IMG/VR virus record: IMGVR_UViG_3300025168_000671
Coordinates: 1 to 23,865 of that record
Length of the DNA: 23,865 nt
Source of the DNA: a virus
Direction: 5' to 3' (one strand)
Shown: piece by piece, positions 2,593 to 11,290 of the stretch
Layout: every line of letters begins with the position of its first letter
Numbering within the stretch: the stretch's first letter is position 1
The notes under the pieces: model-generated
Seen by the model: the letters and a program-made list of their open reading frames with translations, nothing else
The model's database searches: none
What the model was told of the DNA's origin: nothing
Translations under genes and position numbers: made by a program

Positions 2593-5406
2593 TTATGATA
2601 GCTTACGAATTTTTTCTATGTAAACTTTTCTAAATCCTTTTTTTATATTACCTTTTACAAGATACCAATCACTGATTTTTCCATCATCGACAATGGGCTT
2701 TCCAACTGTCGGAAATTTAAATCTGTCAATCTCTGAAATAATCAAACCTGTATCATCTTCAAAAGATAAATTTAACGTCAGGTTTAATTTATCAATTCTT
2801 CGACCATTCCTTTTTTGTAAGTTAGCAGTTCCATTCATATCTCTTAAATTCTTTTCTTTTAATTTCCCAAAAAAAACATACGTTCCTGAATAATCGGATT
2901 CAAGTTTGCCTATATCTGTTATTGGTGTTTTTATATTATGAGATTCTGGATCTTTCTTAATATGCCCAAATCTTCTTTCACATTCAAATATATCATCGTA
3001 TGGTGTTTCCCCAGAATTTAAAAGTTTTTCCTGATGAGGTGTTAATGGCTGATTTAATTTTCTCCTGTTAATTACATCTTCAGCCATTTTTGGACCAACA
3101 CCTTTTATTCCTATTAATCCACCTATCAATTCACCATCCTGAACAGACCAATTTTCTGAAGATTTGAATTTGTCAAATGGTTTGTATACAAGTCCTTCTC
3201 TTACAACTTCTCTCAAAAGTTTAACTCCTTGTTCATCGTCTTTAACATTTCTTAAACATGCAGCTGCAAATTCTAATGGGAATTTACTTTTTAAAACACA
3301 ACACCAATAACTTATCAGAGCATATGAAACTGCATGACTGCGATTGAATGCCCAAGATCCCATTGTGTTAATATTTTTCCATATTTTAAATGCTTGATCT
3401 TCATCAATGCCATTCTCTTCAGCACCCATTTTAAACTTCTTCCAATATCTATCAAAAAATTCTTCACCCAAAGATTTACTCATTGCCTTGCGTAATTGAG
3501 AAACATCTTCCCAACTTAACTTGCCAATATCACGAGCTATGGTCATGACTTGTTCTTGATAAACCACGACACCATAGGTTACTTTTGTTGATTCTTTTGT
3601 CATTGGATGCAAATACTCAACAGGTAATTCACCAGTTCTTCTTTTTATATAGAGTGTTGTTCCTCCAGAGCTTAATGGTCCAGGACGAGCTAGTGCAGTA
3701 ATCGAAGCAATGTCTTCAAAATTTTGTATTTTCATTTGTCTTGTCACTGCTTGTAAAGCATAACCTTCAAATTGAAATATTCCTGCATATTTCTCTTCAT
3801 TTAAAACTTTAAAAGCACCCTTATCGTCGAATTGTAAATTAATCAGATCCCTTCTTTTCCAATTAACTTGATCAAGTATGTCCTGAATAACAGCCAATGT
3901 TCTTAAACCGAGTGCATCTATCTTCAATAAATTTAACTTCTCTGCATCTTTTTTATCAATCTGAGCAGAGCCTGTTTGCTGGTTTACTGAACAATATTTA
4001 AAAACAGGCTCTTCAGTTACAATTATTCCAGCAGCATGAACACCAGTGTGCCTTGCATGGTTCTCTATATTTTCAGCAACTCTCATTTGAGGATATTTTT
4101 CTAAAACTTTTTTACCAACATCAAGATCATTGAATGTGTCCATAATGCAAAACTCAGAACGATCATCACCATCTCTTCTTTCAATAATTGTATTTTTTAA
4201 ATCATTAACTTCCCATGATGGAATTCCTAATTCTTTTGCAACTTCTGTTATTGTGCTTTTAGCTTTGTATCTGCTGACAGTTCCTAGATGAGCAACTTTT
4301 TCTGAACCATATTTATCTCTCAAATAATTTATGACCATCTCTCTTCTATCATCCTGAAAGTCAATATCAATATCTGGTAAATCTTCACGAGAAATATCAA
4401 TGAACCTTTCAAACAATAAATTAAATTTTATAGGATCAATATCTGTTATTCCTAATAAATAACAAATTAATGAACCAGCTGAAGATCCTCTGGCTGGACC
4501 AACTAACATATGTTGCTTGGCAAAATTAATCATATCAGCTATTACAAAAAAATAATCTTCGAACTTTTTACTTGCTATCATTTCAAGTTCTCGATTCATT
4601 CTGTCTTTATATATTCCATTTTTCAAACTTATGTTTCTTTTAATTGCTCCTTCTTCGCACATTTGCCTTAATGTTTTTTCTGCTTTGAAAGTTATCATCT
4701 TACCAATCGGCAATTCAGCATTGCACATTTTTGCTATTTCATAAGTATTGCTTATTGCTTCTTCTGGAATCCATGGAACTAAATCTTTTAATTCCCATTC
4801 ATTAAGTATATGCATTGGTGCTGTTCTATCTGTTCTATTTTTACCAACAAGAACTTCATAGACTTTCCTATCATTTACTTTTGGGTAGTAATTATCAGAG
4901 GTTGCCACTGGTTCAAAACCTTTTGATTCGCAAAAGTCTAATGCCTTCCGAGAACTCATAGGATTCATCTCGATATATAAATCGCTTTTTCTGGCCAAAG
5001 GAAGTAATCCCCACTCTGGATGCGTTCCACTAATTATAATTAAGTTTTCCGAAACATCAAATAAATCAGAATATGAAAGTCTGGGGAAATAATAAAAATT
5101 TTCTTTCTCTGTGCTTTTTGTTACAAGTTCATAAAGCTCTTTTAATCCTTTATTATTCTTGGCGATAAAAGCCATATAATTTGTTGGCTGCTTTTCTCTT
5201 TTAGTTGAGTCTTCAACAAATGCTATCTCAGTACCAAACAATGGTTTTTTATTTAACTCTTTACATGCTTTACTAAAAGAAACATGTCCCCAAGTTCCAG
5301 AGTCGCAAATACCAACTGCATCACCTTTGGTAGATTCAACAACTTTTTTAGTATGACCAAATGCTTTGCGAAATGAGTATTCAGTTCTTAATCTAATATT
5401 TAACAT
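2593..5406 (-). CDS. dnaE: DNA polymerase III alpha subunit (C-family, DnaE-like)
   Basis: This 937-aa protein is the phage replicative polymerase. After a PHP-type N-terminal domain (about 1-230) comes the C-family catalytic core. It contains GPARGSSAGS (303-312), PDIDIDF (344-350, catalytic D345 and D347) and LLKIDALGLRT with the third aspartate D497. The fingers include LARPGPL (572-578), and a helix-hairpin-helix (IGIKGVGPKMAEDV) lies near 765-778. A C-terminal OB-like region follows; cellular proteins are about 1100-1160 aa. The PHP domain has lost the usual histidines: the start reads NIRLRTEYS instead of HLHxHSxYS, and CDSGTWG replaces the TDHGN block. It is therefore probably not a nuclease, and proofreading falls to the exonuclease encoded just upstream. 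I see no clear clamp-binding motif. The ATG follows AGGA at good spacing. Confidence 0.95.
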   Translation of the reverse strand: MLNIRLRTEYSFRKAFGHTKKVVESTKGDAVGICDSGTWGHVSFSKACKELNKKPLFGTEIAFVEDSTKREKQPTNYMAFIAKNNKGLKELYELVTKSTEKENFYYFPRLSYSDLFDVSENLIIISGTHPEWGLLPLARKSDLYIEMNPMSSRKALDFCESKGFEPVATSDNYYPKVNDRKVYEVLVGKNRTDRTAPMHILNEWELKDLVPWIPEEAISNTYEIAKMCNAELPIGKMITFKAEKTLRQMCEEGAIKRNISLKNGIYKDRMNRELEMIASKKFEDYFFVIADMINFAKQHMLVGPARGSSAGSLICYLLGITDIDPIKFNLLFERFIDISREDLPDIDIDFQDDRREMVINYLRDKYGSEKVAHLGTVSRYKAKSTITEVAKELGIPSWEVNDLKNTIIERRDGDDRSEFCIMDTFNDLDVGKKVLEKYPQMRVAENIENHARHTGVHAAGIIVTEEPVFKYCSVNQQTGSAQIDKKDAEKLNLLKIDALGLRTLAVIQDILDQVNWKRRDLINLQFDDKGAFKVLNEEKYAGIFQFEGYALQAVTRQMKIQNFEDIASITALARPGPLSSGGTTLYIKRRTGELPVEYLHPMTKESTKVTYGVVVYQEQVMTIARDIGKLSWEDVSQLRKAMSKSLGEEFFDRYWKKFKMGAEENGIDEDQAFKIWKNINTMGSWAFNRSHAVSYALISYWCCVLKSKFPLEFAAACLRNVKDDEQGVKLLREVVREGLVYKPFDKFKSSENWSVQDGELIGGLIGIKGVGPKMAEDVINRRKLNQPLTPHQEKLLNSGETPYDDIFECERRFGHIKKDPESHNIKTPITDIGKLESDYSGTYVFFGKLKEKNLRDMNGTANLQKRNGRRIDKLNLTLNLSFEDDTGLIISEIDRFKFPTVGKPIVDDGKISDWYLVKGNIKKGFRKVYIEKIRKLS

Positions 5407-5488: not shown

Positions 5489-6022
5489 TTACAGATGATC
5501 CTCTTTTTTATACCATTTTAATATTTCTATTGTTGCTTCAACATCAACTAAAGATCTGTGAGCACCTTCAATCTTTTTGCCAAATAGCTCTTCATAGATG
5601 TCTCCGAGCTTTCTCATCTTTCCCCAGACTGACTGACCAATCTCAACTGTACAGATATGATTATATGCCCATGGGAACTTTGTAAGTTTGTCTATTCTTT
5701 CTAATTCGAATTTTAATATTTGCCTATCGAAAGAAAGATTGTGTGCTGCCATTGAACTCTCCCCACAAAACCATTCAGCAAGTTTTTTATAATGAGCAAT
5801 AAAAGGTTTTTGATCTTTTAGCATTTGGTCTGTTATTTTTGTTATCTTTATTATTTTAGGATCTAATGGGTGTCCAGGATTGCACATAAACTCAAGACGA
5901 TTCAATTCATTGAAATCATCATCAACTTTAATGCCACCAAATTCTATTATTCTTGGCTGCATATCAAGATCACTGCCTTCAGCTTTTGGCAATCCTGTTG
6001 TTTCAAGATCGAATACTATCAT
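5489..6022 (-). CDS. DnaQ-like 3'-5' exonuclease (DEDDh), proofreading
   Basis: The 177-aa protein contains all three exonuclease blocks: Exo I FDLETTG (D5, E7), Exo II AAHNLSFDRQIL (D99), and Exo III HRSLVDVEAT (H155, D160). The histidine places it in the DEDDh subclass with the polymerase III epsilon subunit. Being next to a DnaE-like polymerase whose PHP domain looks inactive makes proofreading the natural role, acting in trans as epsilon does. The gene starts 20 bases inside the end of the DUF1599-like gene, using GAGGGA as ribosome-binding site, and ends 82 bases before the polymerase start. RNase T-like RNA or primer trimming cannot be excluded. Confidence 0.9.
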   Translation of the reverse strand: MIVFDLETTGLPKAEGSDLDMQPRIIEFGGIKVDDDFNELNRLEFMCNPGHPLDPKIIKITKITDQMLKDQKPFIAHYKKLAEWFCGESSMAAHNLSFDRQILKFELERIDKLTKFPWAYNHICTVEIGQSVWGKMRKLGDIYEELFGKKIEGAHRSLVDVEATIEILKWYKKEDHL

Positions 6023-8887: not shown

Positions 8888-10414
8888 TTAAAAATCCTCC
8901 TCTACATTTGATGGGACACCTATATCCTCATCTTCATAAAATTCAGGGGCAGGAACAGACCAGACTTTTACAACTTTACCTTTAATTCTAAATGTTTTTC
9001 TATCACCACCTATACTTCTCAACCATGACCATATTTGGTGCTGGGTTGAGTATCTATATCTTCTTGCTTCTAAGTATATAAATAAATCCTCTGATCTAAA
9101 ATAAACTTTGTGTTCATCAACATTGTGCCATGGTTTGCCATTCATTATTTCATCTTTCTGGCGAGCTTGAACTTTTCCAGTTAAAAATGCATCTAATGCT
9201 TTTTCAAATTGACCTTGTGGTGATGCATCATCAGGATCAATTATAACTTCAACACTTTGCAATAGTTCATTTATTCTTTTTTCCCATTTTAAAGCTGGCA
9301 TTACATTTGGACATTTATTAAGTTTCTCAACACAAAGTTTTTGCAGTTGCCTTTGATCTAATAATTGTTGAGTTGTGACTTCTATCCTTTCACCTTGCAT
9401 CTCGATGTACCATCTCACAGAAGATTTATTTTCAGTTTCATATTTTGTTATGGCATCAACCTCAATTGCCAGACCACCAACACCAAAACCACCCACTCCA
9501 TATTCTCTTCGCATGCATTTTGGTTTTTCACAGTAATTGCATATGGGAGATTGCTTACATGTATATGCATAATCTTTTCTTGAAACTGATTTAACAATGC
9601 CATTAACTTCACCAGCAGGAAGTGGTGTTGACAAATGCTCATAATTAAATTTCATTAAATCTTCTTGCCAATCATCTGGATTCTTTTTACGATAATAAAC
9701 ACCAACATTAAATAATGAATTATTGCGACCACCCTCTGGGAATCCCATTGTCATGATATGTTGTAAGCAAGGTGGACCATCACTAAATACATTTGTCAGT
9801 TTGGGTTTAAAATTTTCTAGTTTTTCATGGCTGGTTGTTTTCTTTTCAGCCAGCTCCACAAATTCTTTTAAATTTAATTTTTTGCCATTGTGAATTGCAT
9901 ATCGTTCACTTTTGTCACCATCCCAATAACAAAGGTTTATCCAGTTTCCTCTATCTCTTTCATTGGCTCTGCTTATTTGCTTGGGGAATATTTCTGCTCC
10001 ACCATAACCTAATTGAGCTGCAAACTCATTTAATTTTGAAACCATGTCAATTGCAGCAATTGCAGGTTCACAGAATAAATATAAATGAGCACCACCAGAT
10101 TTACTCCTGCAAAGTATTAATGGTGTTTTTCTAATTTTCTTTTCTAAACTTTCAAGTGATTCATTTAATTTTAACTCACCACGAATGTCAATATCAATTA
10201 CACCAAAATTGCAGGAATTATCCAACTTCAGCATTATTATTCCTAATATATAATCACCACCATTTAAGTGATGCTTAAAATTTTCTTCAGTTACAGGTTC
10301 ACTAACTGTAACAGCACGACCAGACATTTTGCCATCTGCCTCTTGCTTTACGACTCTGTACTGACCATGAGCAAGTTCATATCCATGGAACAACTTCATA
10401 AATCTTTTTAACAT
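8888..10414 (-). CDS. DNA primase/primase-polymerase of the archaeo-eukaryotic (AEP) type
   Basis: The 508-aa protein has the AEP primase core: FGVIDIDIRG, where D74 and D76 form the DxD metal site, then CRSKSGGAHLYLF with the S/GxH nucleotide-binding motif (H110), and QISRANERDRGNWINL further on. A cysteine cluster (C286, C292, C295, C300) in YTCKQSPICNYCEKPKC is a probable zinc or iron-sulfur site, as seen in phage primases before an RxYGVGG segment. The C-terminal ~90 residues look like a winged helix. No helicase domain is fused. It should make primers for the phage polymerase. The frame extends to a TTG at 10444, but the ATG at 10414 has AAAGGAAT at the right distance. Two hairpins lie directly upstream. 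Confidence 0.85.
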   Translation of the reverse strand: MLKRFMKLFHGYELAHGQYRVVKQEADGKMSGRAVTVSEPVTEENFKHHLNGGDYILGIIMLKLDNSCNFGVIDIDIRGELKLNESLESLEKKIRKTPLILCRSKSGGAHLYLFCEPAIAAIDMVSKLNEFAAQLGYGGAEIFPKQISRANERDRGNWINLCYWDGDKSERYAIHNGKKLNLKEFVELAEKKTTSHEKLENFKPKLTNVFSDGPPCLQHIMTMGFPEGGRNNSLFNVGVYYRKKNPDDWQEDLMKFNYEHLSTPLPAGEVNGIVKSVSRKDYAYTCKQSPICNYCEKPKCMRREYGVGGFGVGGLAIEVDAITKYETENKSSVRWYIEMQGERIEVTTQQLLDQRQLQKLCVEKLNKCPNVMPALKWEKRINELLQSVEVIIDPDDASPQGQFEKALDAFLTGKVQARQKDEIMNGKPWHNVDEHKVYFRSEDLFIYLEARRYRYSTQHQIWSWLRSIGGDRKTFRIKGKVVKVWSVPAPEFYEDEDIGVPSNVEEDF

Positions 10415-10432
10415 TTTTATTCCTTTATTAGT

Positions 10433-10467
10433 GATGCAGTCCAAGGAGGAACAACTCAGACTGCATC
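10433..10467 (-). promoter_or_regulatory. Hairpin with anti-Shine-Dalgarno-like loop upstream of primase
   Basis: GATGCAGTC and GACTGCATC form a perfect 9-bp stem with a 17-base loop. In the mRNA (minus-strand) sense the loop contains UUCCUCCUUG, which resembles the 16S rRNA 3' end. The stem ends 18 bases before the primase ATG. The loop could pair with the primase ribosome-binding site (AAAGGAAU), giving translational control, but the effect is inferred. Confidence 0.6.
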
Positions 10468-10468
10468 T

Positions 10469-10490
10469 TTTCCTTATTTTACTAAGGAAA
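10469..10490 (-). promoter_or_regulatory. Second hairpin between the SSB-like gene and primase
   Basis: TTTCCTTA and TAAGGAAA form a perfect 8-bp stem with a six-base loop, one base from the neighbouring hairpin and just after the stop of the SSB-like gene. No T-run follows on the minus strand, so a standard intrinsic terminator is unlikely. It may be an mRNA-stabilising or processing element. Confidence 0.55.
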
Positions 10491-10492
10491 CC

Positions 10493-11290
10493 TTAAAATG
10501 GTATTTTGTCATCATCCAAATCATCAGCTTTTACTTTTACTTCTCCAGCTGCAACTTTTGATTTAAAATCTCTCGCAGCTAAATAAATATCAGAGCCATT
10601 CTTTAGATTTTCTATAATACCACCAGACTTCGCATCGTATAGTATTTCAACATTCCAACCAAACCAAGTTCCTTCATCATTTTTTTCAGGAATAGTTGTC
10701 ATTTGGTAAGCAGTGTAAAACATTGCTGGGTTCATCACACCTTTGCCATCTGGACTTGGAACTTGAAGTCTGTTCATCATCGAGTTCCATCGTCTAGACT
10801 TTTTAAGTTGAGATGAAGACATGGAAATCAATGCTGGGGAAAAAGACTCACCATCAATAACATAAACCATATATTCCCCAGTTGGAACAATCTGATTGCC
10901 TTCCTCGGTAAAATACTTGCCCTTTTTATCTTGAGTACAAGTTGTTAAAATAAATGGATCATTGCCATGATCTTTTACCAAGCCACCTCTGTCTGGTTTC
11001 CATTCTAGATGGGTTCTGCGATAACTTATTGGCACAACTGTTATGCCCTTCTCGCCATCTATAATTTCATTGGAAACAGTATCAACAATAAATCCAGCTT
11101 CAGCACCTTTGACGTAAGCTGGATCTGCTTTCATTGCAATTGGTGATTGTGCCTGTAAAATATTCAGGCGAGGAATCATCATATCGTCTTGTGACATATT
11201 TTCAGATGCTGAACCTGCATCCTGTAGTAATAAATTTTTATCGAACGCAACTACATTACTTTGTTCTTTTTGTTTTACTTCGTTTGCCAT
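10493..11290 (-). CDS. SSB-like single-stranded DNA-binding protein with an acidic DDDKIPF tail
   Basis: The 265-aa protein ends in DDLDDDKIPF, almost the tail of bacterial SSB (DFDDDIPF), the short peptide through which SSB recruits replication and repair proteins. The body is beta-rich (AGFIVDTVSNEIIDG, GITVVPISYRRTHLEW, YMVYVIDG, MFYTAYQMTTIPE), in keeping with an OB-type fold, although it is longer than classical SSB and I see no direct SSB sequence match. It lies immediately upstream of primase, which suits a role in coating the unwound strand and handing it over. Ribosome-binding site AGGAG; two bases separate it from the upstream gene. The tail is observed; DNA binding is inferred. Confidence 0.7.
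   Translation of the reverse strand: MANEVKQKEQSNVVAFDKNLLLQDAGSASENMSQDDMMIPRLNILQAQSPIAMKADPAYVKGAEAGFIVDTVSNEIIDGEKGITVVPISYRRTHLEWKPDRGGLVKDHGNDPFILTTCTQDKKGKYFTEEGNQIVPTGEYMVYVIDGESFSPALISMSSSQLKKSRRWNSMMNRLQVPSPDGKGVMNPAMFYTAYQMTTIPEKNDEGTWFGWNVEILYDAKSGGIIENLKNGSDIYLAARDFKSKVAAGEVKVKADDLDDDKIPF

Follow-up and report, generated by a model that had tools for sequence, protein, structure and literature searches.

Two back-to-back RNA hairpins in a virus replication gene cluster, standing between the gene for an SSB-like protein and the gene for primase, are real and kept by natural selection. The element is most likely part of the upstream gene, at its end, and not of primase; the upstream product resembles Pam3 gp34. 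The function put forward in the original prediction, a ribosome-mimicking switch for primase, is not supported, and the double hairpin does not establish a new kind of switch. Its likeliest job is that of a terminator-type or 3′-end-stabilizing boundary by which the amounts of SSB-like protein and primase are set relative to each other. We thus describe a strongly selected RNA boundary past the SSB-like gene that is kept in the replication gene clusters of very different phages.

The window (the whole stretch of DNA that we analyzed) comprises 23,865 nt of virus record IMGVR_UViG_3300025168_000671, positions 1 to 23,865. The features at issue are as follows:

10493..11290, minus strand: upstream gene, Pam3 gp34-like ("SSB-like") protein of 265 aa (PF23977, E 1.6e-57; phrog_2402, unknown function)
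10493-10495, minus strand: stop codon TAA of the SSB-like gene
10469..10490, minus strand: HP1, the first hairpin in mRNA order, 8 bp (UUUCCUUA/UAAGGAAA) with a loop of 6, 2 nt past the SSB-like stop codon
10433..10467, minus strand: HP2, the second hairpin, 13 pairs including two G-U, loop UUGUUCCUC at 10446-10454
10420..10426, minus strand: primase ribosome-binding site (RBS) AAAGGAA, read from the sequence, outside both hairpins
8888..10414, minus strand: downstream gene, archaeo-eukaryotic-type primase (AEP-TOTE and PriCT-1 domains) of 508 aa (PF22548, E 1.4e-9; PF08708, E 3.5e-5; phrog_21866 primase, E 8.8e-96)

Structure and conservation of the hairpin pair

Both pairs of arms are 100% complementary (10433-10441 with 10459-10467, 9 bp with 17 bases between; 10469-10476 with 10483-10490, 8 bp with a loop of 6), and a single base separates the hairpins. 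Arm complementarity and coordinates therefore confirm the two perfect stems, their spacing, and the gap of 78 bases from the SSB-like stop (10493) to the primase ATG (10414), which lies 18 nt past the 3′ foot of HP2. The 17-base loop with an anti-Shine-Dalgarno (anti-SD) string, also part of the original prediction, stands only in part: 17 bases do lie between the 9-bp arms, but as minus-strand RNA HP2 gains four more pairs (UGAG/CUUG, with two G-U), so that its loop measures 9 nt, not 17, and the CUUG of the "anti-SD" string is part of the stem. Read on the plus strand, the HP2 loop (10442-10450) is CAAGGAGGAAC, a near-perfect Shine-Dalgarno (SD) sequence; the list of open reading frames has no plus-strand ORF of at least 60 aa starting just after it.

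The 68-nt double hairpin folds at −25.7 kcal/mol versus −11.4 in shuffles (z −6.0; matched by 0 of 200 shuffles), and its site is the best-folded 80-base segment for its composition in the whole 23.9-kb contig, both strands considered (rank 1 of 4758). The same scan of five related contigs ranked the site first in two and fourth and tenth in two more; in G006 it fell outside the top 14. By itself, the HP1 region of the window folds at z −2.1. The minimum free energy structure, which makes up only 3% of the ensemble, includes a weak form of long-range pairing (CAUUUU/AAAAUG) between the end of the SSB-like gene and the primase RBS. The primase RBS has a mean unpaired probability of ∼0.5 in the window, and the SD of relatives is likewise about half free on average. 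Rfam release 15 gave only two matches to the window region, both far below gathering scores, and none to 20 related loci.

A primase-based scan yielded 80 viral contigs, nearly all with a gp34-like gene directly upstream, and 55 distinct related gaps were folded against shuffles. Almost all (52 of 55) fold at z < −2, with a median of −3.95; every gap, of 40 to 140 nt, has one strong hairpin or more, and 42 of them can be divided into at least two back-to-back domains. In 29 of the 55 relatives, HP1 takes its 5′ arm from the final codons and the stop codon of the upstream gene, and HP1 starts 0 to 5 nt past the upstream stop in 12 gaps, the window included. In the relatives, the distance from the end of HP2 is mostly 20 to 22 nt to the start codon and ∼8 nt to the SD. 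The element is not indispensable, because two relatives (L042 and L072) have essentially no gap between the two genes.

Compensatory change is evident in HP2. Compared with the closest relative (L002, primase 91% identical), five of the 13 pairs are changed on both sides, three are changed on one side but still compatible, five are unchanged, and none is broken. In 17 relatives, conserved flanks alone sufficed to place the HP2 arms; there, 92% of cells pair, versus 67% (standard deviation, 3%) with partners dealt anew (0 of 1000 shuffles). An exact-flank pattern search for close relatives found one true relative, L088, on the contig of L002; the other four matches were due to chance. Wholesale replacement of the stem between close relatives was ruled out, since the HP2 stem is homologous, with compensatory changes along its length. 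The original prediction had named the absence of compensatory changes, or loss of the stems, in close relatives with the same gene order as what would refute it; what we found there instead, in L002, in the flank-anchored set and in the folded gaps, was covarying, well-folded stems.

For HP1, support comes from fold z-scores rather than from covariation: its region folds at z < −2 in 34 of 42 relatives and folds less strongly (z −1.5 to −2.1) in the small clade to which the window belongs. Where the 5′ arm is coding, the paired fraction is 0.82 versus 0.80 in row shuffles, 9 of 1000 of which reach that value; column covariation is slight because the coding arm hardly varies.

Association with the gp34-like gene and not with primase

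We compared named phages that encode distantly related gp34-like proteins. The gap past the gp34-like gene was structured (z < −2) in 15 of 17 of these phages, as opposed to 6 of 31 other gaps at the same loci (Mann-Whitney p 3.5e-5). The gene next to the hairpin is primase in DSL-LC04, 023Pt_psg01, Pan1, R5C, and HTVC027P, a Dda-like helicase in YuA, MW2, and PaMx11, a ligase in Gekk3-15, and an i-spanin in Mansfield; in 14-1, MTx, and Kyle it is an unnamed gene preceding MazG or NTP pyrophosphohydrolase. The records of YuA and Mansfield annotate a terminator exactly after the gp34-like gene (terminators of the named phages are annotations or predictions). No such hairpin was found at related primases that lack a gp34-like gene directly upstream, nor in HTVC023P, whose primase lies 5 nt from the gp34-like gene. 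Because the hairpin is kept whatever gene comes next and is missing before primases without the gp34-like gene, we consider the end of the upstream gene its most likely place.

It is plausible that the upstream protein is SSB-like. Its C-terminal tip, DDDKIPF (DEIPF, NEVPF, or DDVM in relatives), resembles the acidic tip of bacterial SSB. Its predicted model (pLDDT 81) gave weak matches, none significant, that include RPA, gp32, SsbA, and Enc34 SSB. In Vibrio phage H2 and Burkholderia phage Bm1, the gene that follows the gp34-like gene, next to the hairpin, is a separate annotated SSB gene. Elsewhere in the window, the replicase (2593-5406, minus strand) is of the bacterial DNA polymerase III alpha type (PHP, NTPase, and finger domains) and a DnaQ-like exonuclease gene lies at 5489-6022; a bacterial-type replicase is thus combined with a primase of archaeo-eukaryotic type.

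Pairing with the primase RBS

The proposed mimicry of 16S rRNA by the HP2 loop finds no counterpart in the family: a 6-mer of the 16S anti-SD is present in the loop of the window only and absent from the loops of relatives, which rules out an anti-SD loop as a conserved feature. The window loop can pair with the primase SD (8 bp, −8.4 kcal/mol). Over the family, pairing of loops with their own SD averages −4.76 kcal/mol, close to the values with other SDs (−4.46) and for reversed loops (−4.40). Between the end of the SSB-like gene and the primase RBS, native pairing (−5.13) is no better than mismatched pairing (−5.73); it is strong in four relatives (L012, L018, L026, and L027), and as a general feature such long-range pairing was ruled out. 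An SD-sequestering RNA switch should keep an SD-hiding alternative pairing across relatives, whereas the pairings we found equal their controls.

In a few relatives (L018, 2 to 97 bases upstream of the primase start; L026; L027), the upstream gene ends in a sequence (e.g., TTCCTTTCTAA) that complements the primase SD, TTAGAAAGGAA, a pairing that would close a junction around both hairpins. The HP2 loops of several relatives (L026, L027, L031, and L014) have a string like GCCTGTTT in common.

Candidate functions and known systems

We favor, at roughly even confidence, a 3′-end element of the gp34-like gene that forms a terminator-type boundary and limits transcription into primase, leaving SSB-like protein in excess. 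The double hairpin would act at the RNA level, past the SSB-like stop codon, as a gene boundary or attenuator that only part of transcription passes into primase; the SSB-like protein, needed in bulk, would thereby be made in excess over the catalytic primase, a stoichiometric purpose that we infer. In the window's clade, the best reading is that this 3′-end or attenuator element usually takes the form of two back-to-back hairpins without a U-run and would separate the output of SSB-like protein from that of primase. The two-hairpin form may still end or attenuate transcription, by analogy with the tandem "V-shaped" hairpins held to do so in bacteria. One published class of intrinsic termination sites consists of back-to-back hairpins past stop codons and, according to that paper, can do without a U-run (PMC8355165); intrinsic terminators are known to change their stems through compensatory pairs (PMC5381666).

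The site has the stable stem-loop shortly past a stop codon of a canonical intrinsic terminator and the geometry of a V-shaped site (hairpins one base apart, the first 2 nt past the stop codon). Counting against the terminator reading, the tail past HP2 in the window is ACUAAUAAA, with no U-run directly past the stem, most near relatives (41 of 55) likewise have none, and a terminator scan does not flag the site. The earlier view that ordinary termination is unlikely for want of a T-run holds for the window alone; UUUU follows HP2 in 14 of 55 related gaps, and 9 of the 17 gaps past the gp34-like gene in named phages hold a U-run of at least 4. Gaps with a U-run tend to lack HP1, and vice versa (6/8/35/6; Fisher p 0.0035, a test that ignores kinship among related rows); HP1 was strictly defined here as an unbroken stem of 6 pairs, by which a few bulged HP1 stems were counted as lacking HP1, and a tree-aware comparison, with four independent pairs only, has no power, making the exclusion a lead only. 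A literature search on phage transcript ends at the gp34-like gene found no direct match.

A stop in transcription may not be needed at all. The stacked hairpins could instead be an mRNA processing and stability element that, once the transcript is cut within or close to the gap, protects the SSB-like message from 3′-5′ decay, so that the mRNAs of the two genes would differ in lifetime; we regard this as possible, if doubtful. The many sites without a U-run fit it, as does the near absence of single strand between the adjacent hairpins, but it leaves unexplained why a stem plus U-run occupies the same place in distant relatives and in 14 of 55 near ones, and HP2 stems of 8 to 14 pairs are short for RNase III. 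T4 gene 32 offers a precedent, with an unusually stable mRNA that is cut by RNase E near the stop codon (PMC3014915). Control of primase translation, of which the ribosome-mimicking switch is one version, is unlikely. The hairpins might act through loop-SD pairing, by bringing the start site near the stop codon, or through coupling to ribosomes finishing the upstream gene; the nearly constant distance from HP2 to the SD and start codon speaks for this, as do the pairing available to the window loop, the strong gene-end pairing in four relatives, and the HP1 stems that span the upstream stop codon, which terminating ribosomes must open. Against it stand the control-level pairing over the family, an anti-SD motif unique to the window, and a hairpin that persists before nonprimase genes and is absent where primase lacks the upstream gene.

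A more novel proposal, which we consider quite improbable, concerns HP1, which overlaps or adjoins the SSB-like stop codon: HP1 may sense ribosomes finishing the SSB-like gene, with a terminating ribosome holding it open, and HP1 and HP2 together would be a U-run-free attenuator or processing signal tying primase output to SSB-like translation. If true, a large group of phages would have a kind of regulation, through a ribosome-sensing attenuator, that is so far unreported. Least probable by far is a function at the level of DNA, as a protein-binding inverted repeat, a site for loading primase, or a hairpin origin. The repeats can fold on both strands (z −4.2 for the plus-strand RNA) and the neighbors are replication genes, but folding is stronger on the mRNA strand (−27.4 kcal/mol, versus −23.7 for the plus strand), where G-U pairs lengthen the stem and where distant phages carry their U-run. 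In addition, the position is fixed relative to the stop codon and SD, and the stem sequences are free to change, which ill suits a sequence-specific binding site.

Among known systems, T4 gene 32 shares with the window RNA elements around a phage gene for a single-stranded DNA-binding protein, including a processing site near the stop codon. For autoregulation by the SSB-like protein, which the original prediction put forward as a possibility, gp32 is a precedent of another layout: its control acts through a pseudoknot operator in the 5′ leader upstream of its own gene (PMC3014915), whereas the window has two simple hairpins 3′ of the SSB-like gene. The predicted Rho-independent terminators of YuA and Mansfield and the terminator-shaped hairpins of 14-1, JSF39, MTx, Kyle, MW2, and H2 follow the same upstream gene family, just past its stop, and consist of one strong hairpin abutting the RBS of the next gene; they differ in having a G+C-rich stem and a U-run, whereas the window lacks a U-run and has a second hairpin. 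V-shaped, or clustered-hairpin, sites resemble the window in their two unseparated hairpins near a stop codon (PMC8355165), but they lie at the ends of bacterial transcription units, whereas the window pair stands within an operon of a phage, with the next start codon 18 nt farther on, and its role in termination is putative. With the stem-plus-U-run form and the U-run-free double hairpin at the same site, the window's lineage offers a natural series of sites in which to ask whether a U-run can be replaced by tandem hairpins.
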